Assembly: GCA_016291405.1 (NCBI GenBank)
Contig: JAEEXG010000001.1
Location: forward strand, 1 to 64,000
DNA from: Lachnospiraceae bacterium
GTDB taxonomy: Bacteria > Bacillota > Clostridia > Lachnospirales > Lachnospiraceae
Length of the DNA stretch: 64,000 nucleotides
Direction: 5' to 3'
How positions within the stretch are numbered: the first letter of the stretch is position 1; the number at the start of each line of letters is the position of its first letter. The notes beneath the pieces are model-generated. The model saw nothing but the letters and a program-made list of their open reading frames with translations. It ran no database searches and was not told where the DNA came from. Below are positions 954-59,605 of the stretch, one piece after another. The translations under genes and the position numbers were made by a program.

Positions 954-1472
954 ATGAAAAGATTTATAATAACCTTTCTTTTGCTAATTACATCTTTTGT
1001 GTTGCAGGGAACCTTATTTAAGAGCTTGTCTTTTGGCGGAATATCTCCAAACATGACTCTTATTTTGGTTGTATCCCTGGGTCTTATGCGTGGAAAGAAA
1101 ACGGGTATGATTACCGGTTTCTTTGCAGGCCTTCTTTTCGATGTATTCTTTGGTGAGTATATCGGATTTTATTCTCTTTTGATGATGTATACAGGTTTCT
1201 TTGCGGGAAGCTTTAATAAAGTGTTCTTCCCTGAAGACGTTAAACTTCCCATGAGCATGATTGCTATAAGTGATTTAATTTATGGCTTTTTGTGCTATTG
1301 TTTTTTGTTCCTTTTAAGAGGAAAACTAAACGTAGGTTACTATTTTTTGCACGTTTGCGTGCCTGAATGTGTATATACACTTGTTGTAACAATTATTTTT
1401 TACCCCCTTATCCTGGGTATAAACAATTACCTTGAAAAGGGCGAAAGAAAGCAGGCAAGAAAGTTTGTTTAA
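954..1472 (+). CDS. mreD: Rod shape-determining protein MreD
   Basis: A 172-residue, almost wholly hydrophobic protein with about five membrane helices, the expected size for MreD, the integral membrane partner of MreC in the elongation complex. The N-terminal helix followed by GGISPNMTLILVVSLGLMRG and the glycine-rich GFFAGLLFDVFFGE stretch are characteristic. It starts 3 bases after mreC. Its last 41 bases overlap the longest version of the PBP2 reading frame, so the exact PBP2 start is uncertain, but mreD itself is intact. Confidence 0.93.
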   Translation: MKRFIITFLLLITSFVLQGTLFKSLSFGGISPNMTLILVVSLGLMRGKKTGMITGFFAGLLFDVFFGEYIGFYSLLMMYTGFFAGSFNKVFFPEDVKLPMSMIAISDLIYGFLCYCFLFLLRGKLNVGYYFLHVCVPECVYTLVVTIIFYPLILGINNYLEKGERKQARKFV

Positions 1473-4293
1473 TAAGCTTAAAGAGTATTTAATGAGCTTA
1501 ATATCGTCCAGAATCATTTACCTTCTGGTATTTTATTCTGTATTGTTTGGTATTTTAATATACCGTATTTTTGACATGCAGATAATCAGGGGCGAAGACT
1601 ACATCAATAACTTTGAAATGAAGCAAAAGAAGGAAAGGTTTATTGATGCTGCCAGAGGTAATATCTATGATTGCAACGGGGTTTTGCTTGCATATAATAA
1701 ACTGGCTTATTCCGTAACAATAGAAGACGTATATGAATCCGGCAGAAAGAAAAACGAGAATTTAAATAAGACTATATATAAAACCATCAATATTATCGAA
1801 GAAAACGGAGATACCATCGATATTGATTTTGGTATCGATCTTGATGAAGACAATAATTATAAATTCACTCTTTCAGGGGCAAAGCTTTCTCGTTTCAAGG
1901 CAGATATTTACGGCGAAGCATATGTAGACAACATGACTTATGCCCAGGCTTCTTCAACACCTGATGAAATCATCGATTATTTGGCAGGAGAAGATAAGTT
2001 TAATATTGTAGCTATGGACGTTTCAAAAGAAATGACCTTAAAAATGGCTGCAATCAGATATGCAATGAGTTTAAACGCATATCAAAAGTACATTTCCACA
2101 GTTATTTCCACTGATGTTTCCGATGAAACAGTAGCGGTTATATATGAAAACTCAAATGTTTTACGTGGTGTAAATATTTCTGAAGATACTATAAGAGTTT
2201 ATCCTAACGGAAAATATACAGCCCAGATTGTAGGTTATACAGGTAAAATTAACTCAGACGAACTTGCAACCTACTCTTTAAAAGACGATTCCTATTCATT
2301 AAATGATATTATCGGTAAAACCGGTATAGAAAGAAGCATGGAGTCTTGGCTAAGAGGTCAAAAGGGCTCTGAAACAATTTATGTAAATACTACAGGTAAA
2401 GTTATTTCTTCAGAAGATTATGTTGAAGCAACGGCAGGAAATGACGTATATCTTTCCATCGATTCAAAGCTTCAGGAAGCAACTTATAATATTTTGGAGC
2501 AAAAGCTTGCAGGTATACTGTTAAAAAAGATAACCAATTCAAAAGAATATATTCCCAGAGAAAATGCCGATGCATCGGATATTATGATTCCTATTTACGA
2601 TGTTTATTATTCTTTGTTTAATAACCAGGTCATAAACATCGATCACTTAAGCGCAGACGATGCTACAGATACGGAAAAAGAAATCTATGCGGCATTTTTA
2701 AATAAAAAAGCTGATGTAATAGAAAGAATAAAGTCAGAACTTACAGATAAAAAGACGCCTTACAATAAGCTTACAATAGAGTATAAGGTGTATGAAAACC
2801 ATGTGGAAGACCTTCTTTTAAATAATAATATTTTATTATCCGATAAGATTGTGTATTCCGATAAAACATACAAGGCATGGGCGGTTGATGAAACCATCAG
2901 TTTAAGTGATTACATTAATTATGCAATCTCTCAAAACTGGATAGATTCGGATTCTTTGAATCTTGATGAAGCCTATTCTCAGTCAAATGAGATATACGAA
3001 GAAATTGTTAATATAATAGTTGATAAGCTTTCTGTTGATAAAGAATTTGACAGAAAGGTTTATAAGTACATTATCAAAAATGATGCCATTAAAGCAAAAC
3101 AGATATGTAACTGCTTATTGGATCAGGGAATTATTACATTAAGTGAAGAAGAGAAGGCTGCCTGGGACGCAGGAAGAATTTCTCCTTTCCAGTTCATGAT
3201 TACAAGAATAGAAAACCTTGAAATAACTCCTGCACAATTGGCCCTTGAACCATACAGTGCTTCTTTGGTAATTACCAATGTTAATACAGGAAAAGTAATG
3301 GCTTTGGTTTCTTATCCTTCATACGATAACAATTTTCTGGCTAACGGTGCCGATGCAGCTTATCTTAAAAAGATTAATTCGGACCTTTCAAAACCTTTGA
3401 TTAATTATGCCACACAGCAACGTACAGCACCCGGTTCGACATATAAGATGGTGTCTGCAACCGCAGGGCTTTGTGAAGGCGTAATCAATACACATTCTTT
3501 GATAACATGTACCGGTTCTTTCGAAGTAACCACAGATACCCATAAGTGTTGGGTATGGCCCGGTTCTCACGGAGCATTAAATGTATCAGGAGCCATAAAT
3601 AAATCTTGTAACGTTTTCTTTTATAACGTAGGTTACAAGTTAAGTCTTGATGACAGAGGAATGTATAGTTCAGACCTTGGTGTAGAAAAGCTTAATAAAT
3701 ACGCTGACCTTTATGGATTAAGCGAAAAATCCGGTGTGGAAATTGAAGAATACAACCCAATATTGACTGAAGCCTTTTCAGTTCCTTCGGCTATTGGACA
3801 AGGTACCAACTCATTTACTACAGTAGGACTTGCAAGATATGTAACAAGCGTTGCAAACGGCGGAACTGTTTATAATTTGTCTTTACTTGATAAGATTACT
3901 GACAGAGAGGGTAATTTGATTAAGGAATGTACTGCCGAAGTTCGTAATACTATCGAAATGGATGATTCTTACTGGAATGCTATACATGATGGTATGAGAA
4001 GAGTTGTGACAGACATGTCATACTACTCAGAACTTCCCGTAACTGTTGCAGGTAAAACAGGTACTGCACAGCAGTCAAAAACCAGCCCCGACCATGGTTT
4101 GTTTGTATGCTATGCACCTTATGAAAATCCCGAAATTGCCATAGCATCAAGAATATCAAACGGTTATTCATCAAGCTATGTTGCTTTTACGGTAGAAGAT
4201 GTACTAAAGTATTACTTTAATGTTGATAAAGAAGATAATATTGTAACCGGTTCCGCAGAAGCCATCAGTATTTCTGCAGGACACGGAGACTAA
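1432..4293 (+). CDS. mrdA: Penicillin-binding protein 2 (class B transpeptidase) with a large insertion
   Basis: Class B PBP that cross-links peptidoglycan with RodA during elongation. One membrane helix (about residues 28-47) precedes a PBP dimerisation domain (PNGKYTAQIVGYTGKI). The transpeptidase motifs are SxxK with S669 (APGSTYK), SxN at 725-727 (SCN) and KTG at 875-877. At 953 residues it is well above the usual 600-750. The excess is a mainly helical block of about 240 residues (roughly 365-605) between the dimerisation domain and the catalytic phrase SLVITNVNTGKVMA. The start is uncertain: TTG 1432 overlaps mreD by 41 bases and lacks an obvious ribosome site, TTG 1465 follows AAGAAAG, and ATG 1492 also fits. 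Residue numbers are from 1432. Confidence 0.93.
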   Translation: MKRAKESRQESLFNKLKEYLMSLISSRIIYLLVFYSVLFGILIYRIFDMQIIRGEDYINNFEMKQKKERFIDAARGNIYDCNGVLLAYNKLAYSVTIEDVYESGRKKNENLNKTIYKTINIIEENGDTIDIDFGIDLDEDNNYKFTLSGAKLSRFKADIYGEAYVDNMTYAQASSTPDEIIDYLAGEDKFNIVAMDVSKEMTLKMAAIRYAMSLNAYQKYISTVISTDVSDETVAVIYENSNVLRGVNISEDTIRVYPNGKYTAQIVGYTGKINSDELATYSLKDDSYSLNDIIGKTGIERSMESWLRGQKGSETIYVNTTGKVISSEDYVEATAGNDVYLSIDSKLQEATYNILEQKLAGILLKKITNSKEYIPRENADASDIMIPIYDVYYSLFNNQVINIDHLSADDATDTEKEIYAAFLNKKADVIERIKSELTDKKTPYNKLTIEYKVYENHVEDLLLNNNILLSDKIVYSDKTYKAWAVDETISLSDYINYAISQNWIDSDSLNLDEAYSQSNEIYEEIVNIIVDKLSVDKEFDRKVYKYIIKNDAIKAKQICNCLLDQGIITLSEEEKAAWDAGRISPFQFMITRIENLEITPAQLALEPYSASLVITNVNTGKVMALVSYPSYDNNFLANGADAAYLKKINSDLSKPLINYATQQRTAPGSTYKMVSATAGLCEGVINTHSLITCTGSFEVTTDTHKCWVWPGSHGALNVSGAINKSCNVFFYNVGYKLSLDDRGMYSSDLGVEKLNKYADLYGLSEKSGVEIEEYNPILTEAFSVPSAIGQGTNSFTTVGLARYVTSVANGGTVYNLSLLDKITDREGNLIKECTAEVRNTIEMDDSYWNAIHDGMRRVVTDMSYYSELPVTVAGKTGTAQQSKTSPDHGLFVCYAPYENPEIAIASRISNGYSSSYVAFTVEDVLKYYFNVDKEDNIVTGSAEAISISAGHGD

Positions 4294-4303
4294 AGGGGAT
4301 TGT

Positions 4304-4996
4304 ATGAGCTCTTTTGTAACTATTAAAAGTTTTTCAAACGGTTTAAAGGTGTTTTTGGATGATACCTGCAGCTTTGAAGAGCTTGAAAGTGAAATAAAAG
4401 ATAAGTTTGAAAAATCACATGACTTTTTTAAAGGCGGTAAAATAGCCATTTCTTTTGAAGGAAGAACTCTTTCCGATATTGAAGAAAGACGTCTTACAAA
4501 AATAATGGAAGAGTCCGCCGATTTAACCATCCTTTATGTAATCGGTAAGGATGATAAGACAAATCAAAGCTTTGCAAAAGCTGTTGAACGACCTGTTTAT
4601 TCAAAAGAAAACGATGTTTTTGACGGAATATATTCAGGCTCCGTTAAACAGTTTGAAAGGCTTGAAACAAAGGGTAACATTGTTGTTTTGGGAGATGTTG
4701 AGCCCGGAGCTACCATAATTACCGACGGTAACATTATCATTCTTGGAGGCCTTTACGGAACTGCTATAATTAACGCTAAAAAAGATACGGACAAACTCTT
4801 TATAGCAGCAAATGACGTAAGTGCTGAGAAAATACAAATCGGAATAAACGAGTATTATTCAAAAGAAAAATCAAAATGGGTTGTAAGGCCTAAAATGGTT
4901 TCTAAAATCGCCTTTTTGTCACAGGGCAAAATTGTACTTGAAAACATCGGTAAGAGTTCATTAAGTCATTTATGCAATAATATAAACAACGAGTGA
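4304..4996 (+). CDS. minC: Septum site-determining protein MinC
   Basis: MinC blocks FtsZ polymerisation away from midcell and is normally placed by MinD. The 230-residue protein has an N-terminal FtsZ-inhibiting domain (about 1-105) and the right-handed beta-helix C-domain with the hallmark run VVLGDVEPGATIITDGN and IIILGGLYGTA (about 125-155). AAAGGGG lies before the ATG. It sits between PBP2 and rodA. The minD and minE genes that usually follow are absent: rodA starts 4 bases after the minC stop. Whether a MinD partner is encoded elsewhere cannot be seen here. Confidence 0.93.
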   Translation: MSSFVTIKSFSNGLKVFLDDTCSFEELESEIKDKFEKSHDFFKGGKIAISFEGRTLSDIEERRLTKIMEESADLTILYVIGKDDKTNQSFAKAVERPVYSKENDVFDGIYSGSVKQFERLETKGNIVVLGDVEPGATIITDGNIIILGGLYGTAIINAKKDTDKLFIAANDVSAEKIQIGINEYYSKEKSKWVVRPKMVSKIAFLSQGKIVLENIGKSSLSHLCNNINNE

Positions 4997-5000
4997 GAAA

Positions 5001-6143
5001 ATGTTTAAAAACCTAAAGATTAAGGATTATGATTTTAAGTTAATATTTTTCGTTTTATGTACCAATATTTTAGGTATTCTTATTATCGGAAGTGCGGCCC
5101 CTGAACTTCAGCAAAAGCAGCTTCTTGGATCCATTCTGGGAGTTTTCTTAATGGTGGTTGTTTCGCTTTTCGATTATAAGATTATTCTTAGGTTTTATTG
5201 GCTTTGGTACATTATTATGGTGGGATTGCTCTTGGCGGTAAGAATCGTCGGTCGTTCATCCCATGGTTCTGCAAGATGGTTTAGCATTGCCGGTATCACA
5301 TTTCAGCCTTCGGAAACTGCTAAAATAATATTGATTATTTTTTTTGCACAGTTTATCATGAAATATAAGGATAGAATTAACACAGTGAGATTTGTTGTAA
5401 GTTATATATTACTGTGTGGTGTGCCGTTGGGACTTACTCTTTTGCAACCGGATTTATCAACAAGTATTGTAATTGCTACAGTATTTGTTATTCTATTATT
5501 TATTGCAGGAATAAGTTGGAAATTTATTGTTGGCGCAATTGCTCTATTAGTGCCATCTGTAATCATTCTATTTAGTATGATTCTAAAAGAAGGGCAGAGC
5601 ATAATAGACGATTATCAAAGACAGCGTATTATGGCAAAGATTTATCCCGATAAATATGCCGATGATGCTTATCAGCAATTAAATTCTGAAATTGCCATAG
5701 GTTCCGGCAGGTTATTCGGAAAAGGCCTAAACAACAATCAAATTGATTCTTTAAAAAACGGAAATTATATTATCGAACCTCAGAATGACTTTGTATTTGC
5801 AGTTATTGGTGAAGAGCTTGGTTTCTTAGGTTCCTTACTTGTGATTTTACTTCTTTTTGCTATAGCAATTGAGTGTTTTATGATAGCAAGAAAGATTAAA
5901 GAGATAGACGGAAGAGTTATAGCAATCGGAATGGGCTCACTTGTTGGCATACAAGGATTCTTTAATATAGGTGTAGCCACAAACATTTTGCCTAATACAG
6001 GCCTTCCCCTTCCTTTTGTAAGTTATGGACTGACGTCTTTGGTAAGTTTGTATATAGGCATAGGTTTTGTTTTGAATGTGCGACTGCGAAACAAACCTGT
6101 ACGAGATAAAAAAGAGCTTTCATTTATGGGAAGCAGTATATAA
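5001..6143 (+). CDS. rodA: RodA, SEDS-family peptidoglycan polymerase
   Basis: Multi-pass SEDS glycosyltransferase that polymerises lipid II for side-wall growth, paired with the PBP2 encoded upstream. The 380 residues form about ten membrane helices. Family signatures are GSARWFSIAGITFQPSETAKI, IIEPQNDFVFAVIGEELGFLG containing the conserved acidic residue of SEDS proteins, and the C-terminal NTGLPLPFVSYGLTSL. It follows minC by 4 bases with a GAGTGAGAAA ribosome-site region overlapping the minC stop. Length is normal. RodA rather than FtsW is inferred from the mre/PBP2 neighbourhood. Confidence 0.93.
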   Translation: MFKNLKIKDYDFKLIFFVLCTNILGILIIGSAAPELQQKQLLGSILGVFLMVVVSLFDYKIILRFYWLWYIIMVGLLLAVRIVGRSSHGSARWFSIAGITFQPSETAKIILIIFFAQFIMKYKDRINTVRFVVSYILLCGVPLGLTLLQPDLSTSIVIATVFVILLFIAGISWKFIVGAIALLVPSVIILFSMILKEGQSIIDDYQRQRIMAKIYPDKYADDAYQQLNSEIAIGSGRLFGKGLNNNQIDSLKNGNYIIEPQNDFVFAVIGEELGFLGSLLVILLLFAIAIECFMIARKIKEIDGRVIAIGMGSLVGIQGFFNIGVATNILPNTGLPLPFVSYGLTSLVSLYIGIGFVLNVRLRNKPVRDKKELSFMGSSI

Positions 6144-50665: not shown

Positions 50666-51217
50666 TTATTTTGCAGATCTGAAAGGATAATCAATCTCGT
50701 TTTTAAGCTTTTCATACTGCTTATTGATTATCGTTACCATATTGGTATCTCCGCATAAATTGTCGGGATGGAAAATTTTAAGCAAATCTCTGTATCTTTT
50801 CTTTAATGCCAAAGGATTTGTTACCCCTGCAAATAAAGAACCTGACAGATTCATGTTAAACTCTTCTTCATAGTAATCGGAGCGTACTTTTCTCTCCGCT
50901 TCATATGCAAGTTTTTCTTTTGCAAACTTCCTACGGTCTGCTTCCAATGCAGCAAACCCGCTTTGCAAAATTTCCATCTTTTTATCAAAGAACTTCTCTT
51001 CGTCCTTTAATCTTTTTCTTTCTTTAACATTCCGAAGATTAATTTGCTTCATTTCCTCAACAAACTGTACTCGCTCATCAAGGAATTTCTTATGAAGATC
51101 GTTAATTTCTTTCTGCCTTAATTCAAGTCTGATATTCTCTTCGAAAAGCCAGCGTTTTAATTCATTCAGTTTTTCAACATCATTACTTAAAAGTACCTCT
51201 TCGAAAGATTCAGCCAT
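50666..51217 (-). CDS. Coiled-coil protein with C-terminal J domain
   Basis: 183 residues. About 5-118 is a nearly continuous charged coiled coil (ENIRLELRQKEINDLHKKFLD onwards). The last 50 residues resemble a J domain: LALKKRYRDLLKIFHPDNLCG has the HPD tripeptide at 150-152 after the basic helix II, followed by a helix-III-like INKQYEKLKNEID. J domains stimulate DnaK ATPase, so this may be a specialised co-chaperone; the client is unknown. The ATG overlaps the GerW-like stop codon (TGATG). It ends the nudix-YtfJ run. Confidence 0.8.
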   Translation of the reverse strand: MAESFEEVLLSNDVEKLNELKRWLFEENIRLELRQKEINDLHKKFLDERVQFVEEMKQINLRNVKERKRLKDEEKFFDKKMEILQSGFAALEADRRKFAKEKLAYEAERKVRSDYYEEEFNMNLSGSLFAGVTNPLALKKRYRDLLKIFHPDNLCGDTNMVTIINKQYEKLKNEIDYPFRSAK

Positions 51218-51615
51218 CAGGTGTCCTCCTTTGGAAATGCTTTGTCGATTGCTTCTTCATTTGAAGGCATGTTCTTTTTGTTTGACATGTCAGCAATCTT
51301 ATCAATTACATCGGGCACCAAATCAAGAGCCTTTGATAAAGCATCCTGATTCTTAACATTAACAAGTTTTGTGGTTCCGTTTTTAATAATCAAAACAGCG
51401 CTGGGAGTTACCTTACCGGTAATACCGCCACCGTCTCCTGCTTTCTTTGTATTCTCGCATGTTCCCGCAGCCATTCCGAATGAAACGTCAACAAGCGGAA
51501 GAATAATTGTGTCGTCAATCTTTGTGGGATCTCCGATAACGGTTTTTGTAGATATTATTGTATCCATTCCCTTTAACAAAGATTCGATAATATTCTCTGA
51601 TTTCTTTTCAGACAT
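51217..51615 (-). CDS. GerW/YtfJ family spore-associated protein
   Basis: 132 residues with the family pattern ENIIESLLKGMDTIISTKTVIGDP, a glycine-rich centre (FGMAAGTCENTKKAGDGGGITGKVTPSAVLII) and VPDVIDKI near the end. In Bacillus GerW is needed for spore germination, but homologues also occur in Clostridia that rarely sporulate, so sporulation cannot be concluded from it alone. GGGAGG precedes the ATG. It is paired with DUF2953, as usual for the family. Confidence 0.9.
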   Translation of the reverse strand: MSEKKSENIIESLLKGMDTIISTKTVIGDPTKIDDTIILPLVDVSFGMAAGTCENTKKAGDGGGITGKVTPSAVLIIKNGTTKLVNVKNQDALSKALDLVPDVIDKIADMSNKKNMPSNEEAIDKAFPKEDT

Positions 51616-52389: not shown

Positions 52390-52790
52390 TAAAGGTTTTC
52401 CTCGTTATAAAACAAATTACTTACATCTGAAGGATCAAAGGTATTTATTGTTTCTCTAAACTTAAGTTCATTAAACTTTCTAAAAGATAAAGAAACTATG
52501 CAACGGATATATTCATAGGCATCATCTTCAGATTTAAACAATCCCGCAAGTTCTATTCTTTTATCTTGATAATGCTTGTTTTTAAGCATGTTTGAGCCAA
52601 ATATAACAGGTTTTTCTTCGTCTTCTAAGAAACAAACAAGATAATACTTTTTAGTAACTGAATTACTTGTAAACTTTTTTAAAAGTTCCTCTATCTTATC
52701 CTTGTTTCCGTCAAAATAGAGATTATCTAAAAGGATAATATTATTTGTCGTTCCATTGTCCGTTTTGTTTAATCTTTTTATATTCATCAT
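52389..52790 (-). CDS. Hypothetical protein overlapping the nudix gene
   Basis: 133 residues from ATG 52790, with AAAAGG just upstream; the longer ORF-track start at 52823 would overlap the nudix gene by 83 bases, and even the chosen start overlaps it by 50. The protein is soluble and mixed alpha/beta, with many lysines and phenylalanines; no domain is recognised. Its stop shares a base with the DUF2953 ATG. The deep overlap means either coupling to nudix translation or a still later true start. Confidence 0.65.
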   Translation of the reverse strand: MMNIKRLNKTDNGTTNNIILLDNLYFDGNKDKIEELLKKFTSNSVTKKYYLVCFLEDEEKPVIFGSNMLKNKHYQDKRIELAGLFKSEDDAYEYIRCIVSLSFRKFNELKFRETINTFDPSDVSNLFYNEENL

Positions 52791-53184
52791 ATGCCTTTTC
52801 AAGAATGTCTCTCTCGTTGTCATATTTTAATAAATGGTATGCTTCGTGAAGCTTGTAAAACCCGGAGTCCAAAAAGAACTCTTCTCTTTGGGGTTTTGAA
52901 TAAAAAGAATCCGTCTGCATCAAAAACCAGTGAACATACTTGGTTATTTCTTCATTACCGACTTTAAATTTATAACTTGTTTCACCTATATATTTAATTA
53001 TTTCAGCAGTAGATCCTGTTTCTTCTTTTACTTCTCTTACGGCTGTCATTTCTTTTGTCTCCCCTTCTTCCATGGTTCCCTTGGGAAGCACCCAGCCTTT
53101 ATATCTTTCTCCTGTGTTTTTATATAAACAAAGTATTTTTCCACGGTATATGACAATACCGCCGCAGCTGATTGATTCTTTCAT
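52741..53184 (-). CDS. NUDIX hydrolase
   Basis: 147 residues with a complete Nudix box (GX5EX7REUXEEXGU) in GTMEEGETKEMTAVREVKEETGS, preceded by GWVLPK. It should hydrolyse a nucleoside diphosphate linked to another moiety. The closest general type is the diadenosine polyphosphate/MutT-like group with SCGGIVIYRGKILCLY at the start, but the substrate is open. It is 19 bases after the SEDS-PBP gene and begins the nudix-DUF2953-YtfJ section. Confidence 0.92.
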   Translation of the reverse strand: MKESISCGGIVIYRGKILCLYKNTGERYKGWVLPKGTMEEGETKEMTAVREVKEETGSTAEIIKYIGETSYKFKVGNEEITKYVHWFLMQTDSFYSKPQREEFFLDSGFYKLHEAYHLLKYDNERDILEKAYDEYKKIKQNGQWNDK

Positions 53185-53203: not shown

Positions 53204-55978
53204 CTATTCTTCCACATATTCGGAAGTATCAAACCTTCTAAAGTATTCATCAAATATTTTCTTTGCCATAGGAACGGCGTAAAGATTACCGGAGCCCGCA
53301 TTTTCCAGAATAATTGTTACGCATATTTCAGGATCGTCCATGGGTGCAAATCCTGTAAACCATGAGTGAGTGGATTTGCTGAAATCACTGAATTCCGCCG
53401 AACCTGTTTTACCGCATACAGTGTATTTATCGTTATTAAGCTTCTTACCTGTACCGCTTGTAATAACGGCACGCATCATTTCTTTTACGGCATCGCTTTC
53501 TTCCTTTGTAAAGACGGTCTTATATTCAGAAGGTGCAAATTCTTTAACGGTATTCATATTTGAATTTACAACACTTGAAATTAGATAGGGCTTCATGATT
53601 TTACCTTCATTTGCGATTGCTGAAGTAATCATGTTCAAATGCATGGGCGTCATAAGGGTATCGCCCTGACCAAATGCCGTTCTTACCATGGTAATGTCAT
53701 CAAAATCATTTGAAACCTTTGCCGTACTCTCCGCATAGTTCATGGAAAGAGGAAGTTCATTGTTAAACAAAAGGTCATCAAGTGTATTCTGGAATTTATC
53801 TCTGTCAAGTTTAAGACCGATATTACCAAAGGATGAGTTACAAGAAATCGCAAAGGATTTCTTTAAATCCACATATCCGTGAGCCTGATGGTTGTAACAG
53901 ATTATCTTACCCTCATCTACTCTTAATTCACCGTTACAATTAAAGGAATAATCATTATAAGTTTCAGGGTTCTCTCTTATATATTCAAGAAGTGTAATAA
54001 TCTTAAATGTTGAACCGGGAGGATATAAACCTTGCGTTGCTCTGTTTAAAAGCACACTGCTGTCTTTATCATTAATAAGATCATCCCAAATTGCATCAAT
54101 TTCATTAGGGTCAAAGTCAGGCTTTGATACACAGGCTAAGATTTCTCCTGTTTTGGGATTTGATACTATAACAGCTCCGTTGTAAGTTCCGATTGCTGTA
54201 TATGCAGCTTTTTGGATTCCTACATCAAGAGTTGTTATAACTCCGTCCGCAAGATATTTATCTCCTGTAAAATCGGCCGTCATTCTCTCACCCAATGGCT
54301 GATTAGAATTTATAAGATAGTAATTTGCCTGGCCCTCAATACCTGCTTTACCGTTTGATGCATAGCCGACTACATGAGAAAAAATGTTATAGAATGGATA
54401 AAATCTATATTCATCCTTTCCCTTTTCATTTATTGTTTCGGCTAAGATTTCATTATCTCTTGAATAAATCTTTCCTCGTATATTCTGAGTAATAAGCACT
54501 TCCTGTCTGGGATTATAGGAATTGTTTATAAGTTCTTCTTCATGAGTTGCGGAATAAATGCAAAGGTAAGTACAAAGGGCAAAGAAAACAGCAATAAATA
54601 AATAAGTGATTGCAAGCACTAAATTTGACTGTTTCTTCATGTTCCCCGGAACTTTTTGGTCTTCATTTAATTCATAACCTTCTTTTCCCCGAATGATATA
54701 CATTGATTCAATTATAAAAATTGAAAAAATCGTAGCCATTACGGAGCTTCCGCCGTAACTTACCAAAGGAAGGGTCACACCTGTTAAGGGAATGAATTTT
54801 GTACCGCCTCCGATAGTTAAGAAAACCTGGAATATGTATGAAATGCCAAGTCCGATGGAGCAAAGCTTATAAAAGTTATTTTCAAACTTAAAGGATATGT
54901 TTATAAACATGATATAGCAGCTTAAGCAAATCAATATCATGCAAATAGAGAACACAATTCCAAGTTCCTGAGTAATTGCCGAAAAGATAAAGTCGGTTTC
55001 AACGTAAGGTATAGTTTCGGGAGTTCCACCGAATAATCCAAGTCCAAACCATGAACCGCTTCCTATTGCAAACAAAGACTGAGTAATCTGGTATCCTTCG
55101 TTATCAATTACGGAAAAAGGATCAATAAAGGCGGCTACTCTTACCTGTACATGTCTTAAAATCTTAAAGGCAATAAATGATGCTATGCCTCCCATTAGCG
55201 TACCCAAGCCTAAATACCAGAAGTTTCTTGTGGCAATAAAGACCATTAGAACATATACAACATAAAGGATTAAGCCTGCACCAAGGTCGTTAGACAAAAT
55301 CAAGATGCAAACATGTATTGCCGCAAATAAAGTGGTTATAACCAGGCTTTTAAAGCTTGTGTCGTTATACAAAGCTCCTGCCACAAACAAAACAAAAAGG
55401 ATTTTAACAAACTCGGATGGCATAAAAGAAACGCCGAATAAAGAAATGGATAGTTTTGAACCATTTGTCAAAGTTCCAAGTAAGTTAACTATAGCAAGTA
55501 AAGTAATACCCGTAAGGCCGTATAAATAAGGCATATTGGGTATTTTTTCAAATTTGATTAAAAGTAACGGAATAAGCCCACCGATTAAAAATGAAAGGGC
55601 TATAATAATCATTTGTTTTAAGGCCTCATTAAAATCAATTCTTGTAAGCATAATGAGTCCTATGCTTATAAGGAGGCAGGAATTATTAATCAAAAGCCTG
55701 TTTATCCTTGGATAAATCATGGGAACAGCTTCAATGATTAATAACATAAGAATCTGAAAAACAGCGTAAAAAATCAGATATTTTAAGTTACCTGTTTTTA
55801 AGCAGATTGATAAAAATCCCGAAAAGTGAATTAAAATAATCAAAACCACCTGACGGGTATAGATTGCCCTTCTTGCCTTCTCCTCTTTATACTTAAAGAC
55901 CATAAAGCACTCGAGGGTATATACCATTATGAAAATAGTTATAAAATACTTCGATAATGTCGTTATATACTGAACCAA
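53204..55978 (-). CDS. SEDS glycosyltransferase fused to class B PBP transpeptidase
   Basis: 924 residues combining both peptidoglycan synthase halves. Residues about 1-430 are a FtsW/RodA/SpoVE-type polytopic SEDS domain (FGVSFMPSEFVKI, YVETDFIFSAITQELG with the conserved acidic residue, TGVTLPLVSYGGSSV). After a short linker and another helix (about 452-475), residues 476-924 are a class B PBP: RGKIYSRDNEILAET, SxxK S656-K659 (PPGSTFKI), SxN in ISCNSSFG and KTG at 857 (VCGKTGSAEF). Both active sites look intact. TTG 55978 is the start, supported by GAGGAG 8 bases upstream, directly after the U32 stop codon. Confidence 0.93.
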   Translation of the reverse strand: MVQYITTLSKYFITIFIMVYTLECFMVFKYKEEKARRAIYTRQVVLIILIHFSGFLSICLKTGNLKYLIFYAVFQILMLLIIEAVPMIYPRINRLLINNSCLLISIGLIMLTRIDFNEALKQMIIIALSFLIGGLIPLLLIKFEKIPNMPYLYGLTGITLLAIVNLLGTLTNGSKLSISLFGVSFMPSEFVKILFVLFVAGALYNDTSFKSLVITTLFAAIHVCILILSNDLGAGLILYVVYVLMVFIATRNFWYLGLGTLMGGIASFIAFKILRHVQVRVAAFIDPFSVIDNEGYQITQSLFAIGSGSWFGLGLFGGTPETIPYVETDFIFSAITQELGIVFSICMILICLSCYIMFINISFKFENNFYKLCSIGLGISYIFQVFLTIGGGTKFIPLTGVTLPLVSYGGSSVMATIFSIFIIESMYIIRGKEGYELNEDQKVPGNMKKQSNLVLAITYLFIAVFFALCTYLCIYSATHEEELINNSYNPRQEVLITQNIRGKIYSRDNEILAETINEKGKDEYRFYPFYNIFSHVVGYASNGKAGIEGQANYYLINSNQPLGERMTADFTGDKYLADGVITTLDVGIQKAAYTAIGTYNGAVIVSNPKTGEILACVSKPDFDPNEIDAIWDDLINDKDSSVLLNRATQGLYPPGSTFKIITLLEYIRENPETYNDYSFNCNGELRVDEGKIICYNHQAHGYVDLKKSFAISCNSSFGNIGLKLDRDKFQNTLDDLLFNNELPLSMNYAESTAKVSNDFDDITMVRTAFGQGDTLMTPMHLNMITSAIANEGKIMKPYLISSVVNSNMNTVKEFAPSEYKTVFTKEESDAVKEMMRAVITSGTGKKLNNDKYTVCGKTGSAEFSDFSKSTHSWFTGFAPMDDPEICVTIILENAGSGNLYAVPMAKKIFDEYFRRFDTSEYVEE

Positions 55979-58087
55979 TTATTCTACTCCTCTGTTCCAG
56001 TAAGCCTTGGTGTATTCTTTAGGAAAATCATTGGTGTTTTTAAAAAGCAAATCACAAATATTTTCTGTTTCTTTTTCATTTTCATCAACAAAGGAAAGAA
56101 AAGCCTTGTAATTATCAATACCTTTTTCATTAATTAAACATGTGGGAACGCTGTTAAAAATAGTGTTGTAACAAAGATTACAATTTCTGTATACACAAAA
56201 CTTAGCATTTGTGCGATCCACAATATAAGAAAAGTCAGCTCCCTTATCTTTAAGGCATCCCACATTGGTCTTAGCCACGCAATTTGCACTTTGCATTAAA
56301 GGAAGCTTACCATATACGCAAACGTATTCTCCCTTTGCATCAAGATCAGATATTTCATGACGTGACAATTCATAGGGCGCAATAAAAGAATCGGCCTTTT
56401 CTAACACCAAATCTTTTGATGCTTTATTAAATGCATAGATTCCGGGACCGTAAATAACAAATCCCTTAAAATCGCTTTCTTCCACAGCACTTATTTCTTC
56501 AAAATTTTGAACCATAATACCGGAAACGTTATTTGAGACAGCAAAAGAAACCGCTTCCTTTAAATAGGCTCTGTCTTTGTTTCTTGCAATAAAAGGTAAG
56601 CACATAATCACCTTCTTTGAAGGGACTTTAAGTGCTTTTAAATTTTCGTATTCCAAAGCTAAATAGAAATCTTCTTGTCTCTTATTTAAAACACCAATCT
56701 GGCCCTTAGTATAAGCCATGATTATGGGTAATTTTTTAAAAGAAACAGGTTTTCTTTTCTTAATATCTGTAACAGAAGATTTAAATCTGTTCTCTAAAAC
56801 GGTATGTCTGTAATTATCAAGCATTTCTTCTTCAAGCAAAGAAACAGCTTCTCTTCTAAGCTCATTTAAGGCTTTTACAGGGACAAAAGATTCATTATCC
56901 GTTTCACAGAATATTTCATTTATTTCAAAGCAGGTATCCCCAAGCTTAGAAATCTGTTTTGAAATATCTTCTTTTGATAAAGACTTTGTAATGGCCTCCG
57001 AAGGCATATCTCCCATAGCAGTTACACTTATATCACCATAGGTCAAAGTAAGAGAAATGTTTTGACCCATTAAAACGCTGATGAAAGCATCTATCTTTAT
57101 CTTTTTTAAAGAATCAACATATTCTTTAGTAATTTGGGTCATGAGGTTTTCATCATTACCCATATATCCGGGAGTCTTTTCGCAAATCATTTCTTTACCG
57201 TTTTGCATATAGTAATATCCCGTACCAATTTCGCTGCGTAAATAAATGTGCTTAAGCGCATCCAGATCTTTTTTATCAACCTTAAAAGATTTAGGGTCGC
57301 TTAAATAACGGTCAATGTATTTTCTGTACATAGCCGTAACAAAAGCGGTGTATTCAGGCTTCTTCATTCTTCCTTCAATCTTTAAAGAATCAATTTTGGC
57401 TTCAACCAGGTCAGGAATAGACTCAATCGTGCACTGATCCTTCATTGATAAAAAGTAAGATTCATTACTAAGTTTCCCCTTAGGAAGTACGTATTTATAA
57501 GGAAGCCTGCAAGGGCCCGCACATCTTCCTCTGTTTCCGCTTCTTCCTCCAAGGCATGAAGAAAAGAGACATGCTCCCGAATATGAATAACACATTGCCC
57601 CGTGAATAAAGGTTTCTATTTCGATATCTTCATTTTCTTTAATGTTTCTTATTTCTTTTAAAGAAAGCTCTCTTGCAAGCACAACTCTTGAAGCCCCAAG
57701 CTTTTTATACTCTCTTACCGACTCTAAACCTGTAGCAAGGGCCTGTGTACTTACATGACATTCCATATCGGGAAAAAGCTTATTAAACACGCTAATAAGT
57801 CCTAAATCCTGCACAATACAAGCATCTAGGCCAGCTTTATAGAAGGGCTTAATGTATTCACATACATCACTAAATTCTTTTTCTTTAATAAGGGTGTTAA
57901 CGGTTAAATAGACCTTTTTACCGTAAAGATGAGCAATTTTAATAGCTTTAACTATTTCTTCGTCAGTAAAATTATCGGCGTAAGCTCTTGCGCCATATTT
58001 TGACCCACCTAAATAAACGGCATCACAGCCGGCATTGATTGCGCCTATAAAAGATTTGTAATTACCTGCGGGGGCCAATATTTCCAT
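55979..58087 (-). CDS. U32 family peptidase-like protein (RlhA/PrtC type)
   Basis: 702 residues. The N-terminal half is the U32 signature (MEILAPAGNYKSFIGAINAGCDAVYLGG, FIHGAMCYSYSGACLFSSCLGGRSGNRGRCAGPCR with the cluster of cysteines), and the C-terminal part fits DUF3656. In Escherichia coli, relatives RlhA and TrhP hydroxylate 23S rRNA or tRNA rather than cutting proteins, so an RNA-hydroxylation role is likely. The stop codon is contiguous with the SEDS-PBP start. A terminator precedes the start by 20 bases. Confidence 0.9.
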   Translation of the reverse strand: MEILAPAGNYKSFIGAINAGCDAVYLGGSKYGARAYADNFTDEEIVKAIKIAHLYGKKVYLTVNTLIKEKEFSDVCEYIKPFYKAGLDACIVQDLGLISVFNKLFPDMECHVSTQALATGLESVREYKKLGASRVVLARELSLKEIRNIKENEDIEIETFIHGAMCYSYSGACLFSSCLGGRSGNRGRCAGPCRLPYKYVLPKGKLSNESYFLSMKDQCTIESIPDLVEAKIDSLKIEGRMKKPEYTAFVTAMYRKYIDRYLSDPKSFKVDKKDLDALKHIYLRSEIGTGYYYMQNGKEMICEKTPGYMGNDENLMTQITKEYVDSLKKIKIDAFISVLMGQNISLTLTYGDISVTAMGDMPSEAITKSLSKEDISKQISKLGDTCFEINEIFCETDNESFVPVKALNELRREAVSLLEEEMLDNYRHTVLENRFKSSVTDIKKRKPVSFKKLPIIMAYTKGQIGVLNKRQEDFYLALEYENLKALKVPSKKVIMCLPFIARNKDRAYLKEAVSFAVSNNVSGIMVQNFEEISAVEESDFKGFVIYGPGIYAFNKASKDLVLEKADSFIAPYELSRHEISDLDAKGEYVCVYGKLPLMQSANCVAKTNVGCLKDKGADFSYIVDRTNAKFCVYRNCNLCYNTIFNSVPTCLINEKGIDNYKAFLSFVDENEKETENICDLLFKNTNDFPKEYTKAYWNRGVE

Positions 58088-58141: not shown

Positions 58142-58543
58142 TCAATTCATCTTAAGTTCGGTTTCCAGACGGATGAGCTTTCTCGAGCTTTCTTCTAACT
58201 CGTTCTTGAGACTCTTCATGTTCTTTTCATTATTATCAAGTTTTATTTGAGAAGCAATCAATTCATGCTTTAAATCGTAAAGCTCTTTTTCCTTTGCACT
58301 GATTTCTTCTTCAAGAAGTGAAATCTGCTTCTTAGCCTTGAAATAATCGTCGGCAATATTTAATTGCAACAAAACATTTTGCGTGTCCACCGGGGAACGT
58401 CTGAAGCTTTCTATTCTGTTATACTCGGTCACTTTTCCGTTAATGTAGGCAGCTACTTTTTGAACGTATTCTTCGCTTTCGTAACCGCTTACCGTAAGGA
58501 CTTTACCGCCTATGATAACCTGAGTATCTGTCTTGGCCGCCAT
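58142..58543 (-). CDS. zapA: Cell division protein ZapA
   Basis: Stabilises FtsZ bundles at the Z-ring. From ATG 58543 it has 133 residues; the ATG two codons earlier is too close to the GGGGAG ribosome site. The N-terminal domain (TQVIIGGKVLTVSGYESEEYVQKVAAYINGKV) is the ZapA fold, followed by a long coiled coil (about 70-133) for tetramer formation. It has its own promoter reaching into ruvB and a terminator after it. ZapA-U32 is a conserved Firmicute neighbourhood. Confidence 0.92.
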   Translation of the reverse strand: MAAKTDTQVIIGGKVLTVSGYESEEYVQKVAAYINGKVTEYNRIESFRRSPVDTQNVLLQLNIADDYFKAKKQISLLEEEISAKEKELYDLKHELIASQIKLDNNEKNMKSLKNELEESSRKLIRLETELKMN

Positions 58544-58564
58544 TAACATTCTCCCCTAATTGAT

Positions 58565-58597: not shown

Positions 58598-58626
58598 ATT
58601 ATAATAGTGTTACCCCTCAATTTCAA
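58598..58626 (-). promoter_or_regulatory. Promoter of zapA
   Basis: Minus strand TTGAAA (58626-58621), 17 bases, TATAAT (58603-58598). The -35 lies within the last codons of ruvB. Confidence 0.7.
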
Positions 58627-59605
58627 TACCTAAATGCTTATATGCAAGTTCCGTAACGGCACGTCCTCTTGGTGTTCTAACTAAGAATCCGTTCATGATA
58701 AGATAAGGCTCATACACGTCTTCTATGGTGCCGGGATCCTCTCCTATAGTGGCTGCTAAAGTATCAAGCCCAACAGGTCCTCCCTGATAAAACTCAATCA
58801 TGGTTTTTAAAATATTTCTATCCACATGATCAAGGCCCATCTTATCAACATCCATTAAATCAAGAGCGGTTTTAGCAACATCAAGAGTAATTTCTCCGTC
58901 AAACTTAACTTCCGCAAAATCCCTTACTCTTTTTAACATTCTGTTTGCAAGTCTCGGAGTTCCTCTGCTTCTTTTTGCAAGCTCAACAGCACCCTTTTCA
59001 TCGATTTTAACGCCTAAAATCTTTGCGGAATGCTTGATTATGGTAGATAAATCTTCAATAGAATAAAACTCAAGTTTTTGAACAACCCCGAATCTGTCTC
59101 TTAGGGGTGCGGATAAAAGACCTGCTCTTGTGGTAGCGCCAACAAGTGTAAAGGGAGGAAGTTCAAGCCTTACAGACTTTGCGCTAGGGCCCTTACCAAT
59201 CATTATATCCAAAGAAAAATCTTCCATTGCAGGATATAAAACTTCCTCAACCTGCTTATTTAATCTGTGAATTTCATCAACAAAAAGAATATCGCCTTTT
59301 TGAAGGCTGCTTAATATAGCCGCCATATCGCCGGGCTTTTCAATTGCAGGACCGCTGGTAATCTTTATATTTACGCCCATTTCATTTGCAATAATCTGAG
59401 CCAAAGTTGTCTTACCAAGTCCGGGAGGTCCGTATAAAAGCACATGATCCAAAGAATCTTCACGTTTCTTTGCGGCATCAATGTATACTTTCATTATTTC
59501 TTTGACCTTCTTTTGGCCTATATAATCAGACAGAAACTGTGGCCTTAAAGAGCCTTCAAGTTTAACGTCTTCTTCGGTTATATTGGTTTCGATCATTCTT
59601 TTCAA
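58610..59605 (-). CDS. ruvB: Holliday junction branch-migration helicase RuvB
   Basis: AAA+ motor that works with RuvA on four-way junctions. The 331 residues show [16 protein letters not shown], Walker [15 protein letters not shown], Walker [12 protein letters not shown], sensor region [20 protein letters not shown], and a C-terminal winged helix ([27 protein letters not shown]). Start TTG 59605 is supported by AGGAG 6 bases upstream; an ATG three codons later is possible. It follows ruvA by 9 bases. Confidence 0.97.

Follow-up and report, generated by a model that had tools for sequence, protein, structure and literature searches.

A minus-strand gene in the 64,000-nucleotide stretch of Lachnospiraceae DNA analysed here (the window) probably encodes, judging from its sequence, a bifunctional SEDS-PbpA peptidoglycan synthase; this degree of confidence applies to the enzyme and excludes its placement at the division site. 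SEDS polymerisation and PBP cross-linking are usually carried out by two partner proteins. In the window, one uninterrupted minus-strand frame (53204-55978) was found to run from a SEDS polymerase through a cytosolic linker into a class B PBP. The original prediction of a single 924-residue SEDS-class B PBP frame, which left the strand unstated, was borne out by the open reading frame and its Pfam domains. The features of the gene were as follows.

53204..55978, minus strand: fused SEDS-class B PBP gene, 924 aa, 924 codons, TTG start
55987..55992, minus strand: Shine-Dalgarno sequence GAGGAG, 8 nt before the TTG and within the end of the U32 gene (from sequence)
54692..55978, minus strand: SEDS polymerase part, residues 1-429, 13 predicted membrane helices (hydropathy, AlphaFold)
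55715..55975, minus strand: three extra N-terminal membrane helices, residues 2-88, preceding the ten-helix SEDS core
54992..54994, minus strand: predicted catalytic Asp329 of the SEDS part, aligned with E. coli RodA Asp262 (8tj3_B)
54620..54691, minus strand: cytosolic linker, residues 430-453 (about 20 residues), poorly conserved and variable in length
54545..54646, minus strand: helix with the single membrane span of the PBP part, residues 445-478 (hydropathy, AlphaFold)
54257..54478, minus strand: PbpA-type dimerisation/pedestal domain PF21922, residues 501-574 (Pfam)
53252..54178, minus strand: transpeptidase domain PF00905, residues 601-909 (Pfam)
54002..54013, minus strand: motif S656-x-x-K659, with the catalytic serine (alignment)
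53837..53845, minus strand: motif S712-C-N714 (alignment)
53402..53410, minus strand: motif K857-T-G859 (alignment)
53840..53938, minus strand: candidate zinc site C681/C694/H700/C713, beside the transpeptidase active site (spacing, conservation)

Pfam matches to the fused protein were found for SEDS (residues 107-425, 1.9e-53), PbpA dimerisation (501-574, 6.4e-8) and Transpeptidase (601-909, 2.8e-51), all three exceeding the curated cut-offs. The scores were 182 bits for PF01098 in the SEDS part and 33.2 bits for PF21922, compared to cut-offs of 26.4 and 27, respectively. The AlphaFold model of the fusion had a mean pLDDT of 79.6 and a pTM of 0.61. A SEDS core has ten helices as a rule, and the fusion has three more; these were modelled at residues 2-29, 33-62 and 65-88 in agreement with hydropathy, and the Pfam SEDS match started only at residue 107. 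P324 and D329 of the SEDS part, which align with E. coli RodA P257 and D262, respectively, were invariant in 22 fused proteins, and mutation of Asp262 or Pro257 in E. coli RodA abolishes polymerisation (PMC10449877). Model confidence was low in the extracellular loop 287-338, which carries Asp329.

In the PBP half, S656, K659, S712, N714, K857 and G859 were invariant in the 22 fused proteins, and the KTG motif showed one T to S change. The expectation that all recognisable catalytic motifs are kept thus held, with no loss on alignment. The predicted PBP part matched the PbpA structures of Eggerthella lenta (4mnr, TM 0.89) and M. tuberculosis (3upp, TM 0.85) and likewise PDB 3un7, and PbpA proteins also ranked among its best sequence matches. 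By domain, sequence and predicted fold, the PBP half is of the PbpA subfamily. C681, C694, H700 and C713, a set that includes the Cys of the SxN motif, were invariant in the 22 aligned fused relatives, and their spacing is 13-6-13 compared to 15-6-13 for D350/D365/H371/C384 of A. baumannii PBP2; zinc binding by these residues is predicted.

Relatives carry the two parts as separate neighbouring genes that mostly overlap in different frames, so that a single indel would be enough to join them, and a sequencing or assembly error might have done so in this contig. The probability of such an error is negligible. Sixteen of 17 other same-genus assemblies contained the fusion as one stop-free frame of 923-950 aa, with 66-69% identity and nearly the whole query covered, and in the 17th the end of a contig cut the gene short, leaving 222 aa. 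Moreover, linker lengths within the genus differed by whole codons only, and another fused clade includes a single-contig genome (G159). The genus-wide uninterrupted frame rules out chance or a frameshift artefact as the source of the fusion. The start site of the fusion was common to genus relatives, with a similar Shine-Dalgarno arrangement.

The linker had pLDDT values below 50 at residues 433-444. Among genus relatives, the linker showed no internal start that was both conserved and accompanied by a Shine-Dalgarno-like sequence. Production of a separate PBP from Met446, which follows GGGG in the window, was considered and rejected, as relatives lack a Met there. Provided that translation does not begin internally, the two activities would be present in a fixed 1:1 ratio.

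In other genera of the family in the same sample of relatives, the halves were separate frames, adjacent wherever both were listed on one contig. Fusions were also found in further Lachnospiraceae genera and elsewhere in the order, in families other than this one. Outside the genus of the window, most genera had SEDS and PBP genes that were neighbouring and usually overlapping. Of 68 separate pairs, 59 had the PBP frame shifted by +1 from that of SEDS, and in 58 of these 59 the PBP frame extended back into the SEDS 3' end, an overlap that mechanical ORF starts may overstate. With such an arrangement, one indel within the overlap would be expected to fuse the pair. A tree built from 95 pairs required 12 changes between the fused and separate states, at least 10 of them forced by well-supported branches; when most long-branch rows were removed, 10 changes were required and 9 forced. 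These counts, which do not tell gain from re-splitting, reject a single change of state for all fusions and indicate that fusion recurs, the state having changed at least 9-10 times. The genus of the window formed one fused clade (support 100).

Fusions were over-represented in the set of 80 named loci, which was ranked by similarity to a fused query; a broader search at the level of the order gave 8 fused of approximately 150 among the matches listed, own genome included. A strong PbpA-type match was present in 250 of 294 genomes of the order, showing that the pair is widespread and that its fusion is the unusual part. In five loci (L063, L066, L067, L081 and L050), SEDS and PBP lay in the same frame with one stop and 3-6 nt between them; these are possible pre-fusion, re-split or readthrough candidates. 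In genome G038, from another family of the order (L025/L047), a fused SEDS-PBP frame ended at approximately 734 aa and the rest of the PBP lay in a different 151-aa frame, which by sequence is a broken or frameshifted fusion.

The genome was found to encode three SEDS proteins and four transpeptidase proteins. The separate RodA and PBP2 expected in the window were found in an elongation cluster, mreC-mreD-pbp2-minC-rodA, and serve as comparison genes.

1432..4293, plus strand: separate pbp2 of the elongation cluster
5001..6143, plus strand: separate rodA of the elongation cluster

The minC-like gene between them (4304-4996) was assigned by eye. This PBP2 is unusually long (953 aa) and its family matches were split into three segments, a pattern that a long insertion ahead of the transpeptidase would produce; a clostridial-type PBP in the PDB (7rcw, 927 aa) is of comparable length.

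A search for separate division genes found ftsI (669 aa) and ftsW (429 aa) in a dcw cluster on contig C89. The dcw SEDS scored best as ftsW (301 bits, just under the 337.5 cut-off), and the best score of the dcw PBP was with spoVD, below cut-off. The fourth transpeptidase protein (894 aa) is probably a class A PBP. The fusion lies outside the dcw cluster and is not mre-linked, and its scores were 172 bits for NCBIfam ftsW, 158.6 for rodA_shape and 276 for pbp2_mrdA, compared to cut-offs of 337.5, 336.7 and 455, respectively. From these scores and its locus, the fusion is of the actinobacterial RodA-PbpA type and is neither FtsW-FtsI nor RodA-PBP2. Since both of those pairs are present as separate proteins, it constitutes a third synthase and not the second one that had been proposed.

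The following genes flank the fusion, which was found downstream of zapA and the U32 gene as originally described.

52741..53184, minus strand: Nudix hydrolase gene, downstream, often conserved as a neighbour
55979..58087, minus strand: U32 peptidase-family gene, directly upstream, conserved neighbour
58142..58549, minus strand: zapA, upstream, conserved neighbour
58610..59605, minus strand: ruvB, upstream, conserved neighbour

A GerW/YtfJ-like gene, belonging to a sporulation family but scoring under its cut-off, was also seen at 51217-51615. In related loci, zapA lay upstream of the SEDS-PbpA locus in 62 of 63 cases, and ruvB, zapA and the U32 gene were upstream in nearly all, whether fused or separate. 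As ruvB and the U32 gene share the linkage, that of zapA may be plain housekeeping synteny.

The protein would have originated when a 13-helix SEDS polymerase became joined end to end with the PbpA-type class B PBP encoded beside it in the operon. We infer that the SEDS part polymerises Lipid II via Asp329 and that the transpeptidase domain cross-links the strand through Ser656. The two parts would dock like RodA-PBP2, and the polymerase may be activated by the membrane helix and pedestal of the PBP. A short cytosolic linker fits this arrangement, as the SEDS part ends and the PBP part begins on the cytosolic side. Fusion would guarantee pairing and equal amounts; it is not thought to alter the chemistry, because the same two parts are separate in close relatives. 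The product would serve in vegetative growth beside RodA-PBP2 and FtsW-FtsI.

From its neighbours and homology, action of the fusion at or near the division site is somewhat favoured, and a dedicated division role, as first proposed, is hypothesised. In mycobacteria, PbpA acts at the septum and has an important part in division (PMC3989709). Other roles have a precedent too, given that C. glutamicum RodA-PBP2b acts in polar growth as well as cell separation (PMC8262863). The fusion might accordingly be neutral and the enzyme a general envelope synthase for elongation, polar growth, antibiotic tolerance or other stress, with zapA retained by housekeeping synteny. This has a substantial chance of being correct, if somewhat below even: besides the C. 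glutamicum precedent, M. tuberculosis cells are altered in length and wall thickness when rodA or pbpA is knocked down, and a close PbpA-type match was missing in 5 of approximately 90 family genomes, so the pair may be dispensable. In contrast, the genome already has an mreCD-linked RodA-PBP2 pair, and zapA is kept upstream in all but one of the related loci.

It is improbable that the fusion is instead the real vegetative septal synthase, replacing dcw ftsW and ftsI as spoVE and spoVD remnants. The dcw SEDS and class B PBP are often sporulation-specific in sporulating Firmicutes (PMC10693644), and the best score of the dcw PBP was indeed with spoVD; however, the dcw pair is intact and retained in a genome in which Spo0A and SpoIVA were not found, and its SEDS scored best as ftsW. 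The suggestion that the fusion could make the sporulation septum failed on similar grounds, and a sporulation function, in septum or cortex, is highly improbable. The gerW/ytfJ-like gene nearby and the sporulation-specific SEDS-bPBP pairs in many Firmicutes dcw clusters (PMC10693644) would fit it, but Spo0A and SpoIVA were not found in this 99.45%-complete genome and SpoIVA was absent from all six own-genus genomes tested. SpoIVA was tested for in 55 family genomes carrying the pair, and was present in 32 and absent in 23.

Septal action of the fusion, somewhat favoured here, can be extended to the family. The RodA-PbpA-type third synthase encoded beside zapA across Lachnospiraceae could be an unrecognised septal synthase working with or beside FtsW-FtsI, its repeated fusion reflecting selection for obligate pairing in cells that contain three proteins of each kind, SEDS and class B PBP; this is doubtful as it stands.

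Partner choice and activation of SEDS and PBP proteins are central questions in cell-wall synthesis. Recurrent natural fusions of neighbouring genes independently reveal the partnership, here of PbpA type, and indicate that the proteins tolerate being tethered. Such fusions draw attention to a third synthase in Lachnospiraceae and, as natural single chains, lend themselves to cryo-EM and activity assays with no need to engineer a linker. In the literature searched, which covered few subscription journals, no description of the Lachnospiraceae PbpA-type fusion or of its recurrence was found.

That such fusions had been noted before was confirmed. In the literature searched, the existence of natural single-ORF SEDS-PBP fusions was stated explicitly in one paper, with reference to the Rhodococcus RHA1 genome (Nygaard et al. 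2023, PMC10449877), and Rhodococcus plasmid pRWAY03 was found to carry a 941-aa SEDS-PBP fusion, WP_159929546.1 (locus L141, 2779-5604), homologous to the RHA1 case and annotated only as an FtsW/RodA/SpoVE family protein. A natural SEDS-PBP fusion is therefore already a known kind, and the points of interest here are its recurrence and the PbpA-type, 13-helix architecture. The Rhodococcus protein is also one ORF with SEDS preceding PBP, but it shares only approximately 23% identity with the window fusion, is plasmid-borne, lacks the long N-terminal SEDS extension and has a longer PBP region ahead of the transpeptidase. On sequence comparison it is a different pair, independently fused.

The actinobacterial RodA-PbpA system, exemplified by M. 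tuberculosis rodA-pbpA in the pstP-pknAB locus, has the same PBP subfamily and paired SEDS and PBP genes. These genes are separate, whereas the window encodes one polypeptide, and no FHA, kinase or phosphatase gene was seen adjoining the fusion. In Monoglobus (Clostridia), a separate pair is preceded by an FHA gene, as in Actinobacteria. Engineered E. coli RodA-PBP2 (8tj3) and B. subtilis SpoVE-SpoVD fusions share the SEDS-linker-PBP order, the catalytic Asp and the PBP motifs, but they are artificial, of PBP2 or SpoVD type and built on a ten-helix SEDS, in contrast to the PbpA type of the window. Both Lipid II polymerisation and penicillin binding have been shown for the engineered RodA-PBP2 construct, and a synthetic SEDS-PBP fusion made earlier substituted for both genes (PMC10449877). 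The T. thermophilus RodA-PBP2 complex (6pl5) has a homologous SEDS core, and similar docking would be expected, although it is an elongation pair of two polypeptides with low sequence similarity to the fusion. Class A PBPs, like the fusion, combine polymerase and transpeptidase in one chain; their polymerase belongs to family GT51, whereas that of the fusion is a SEDS protein.
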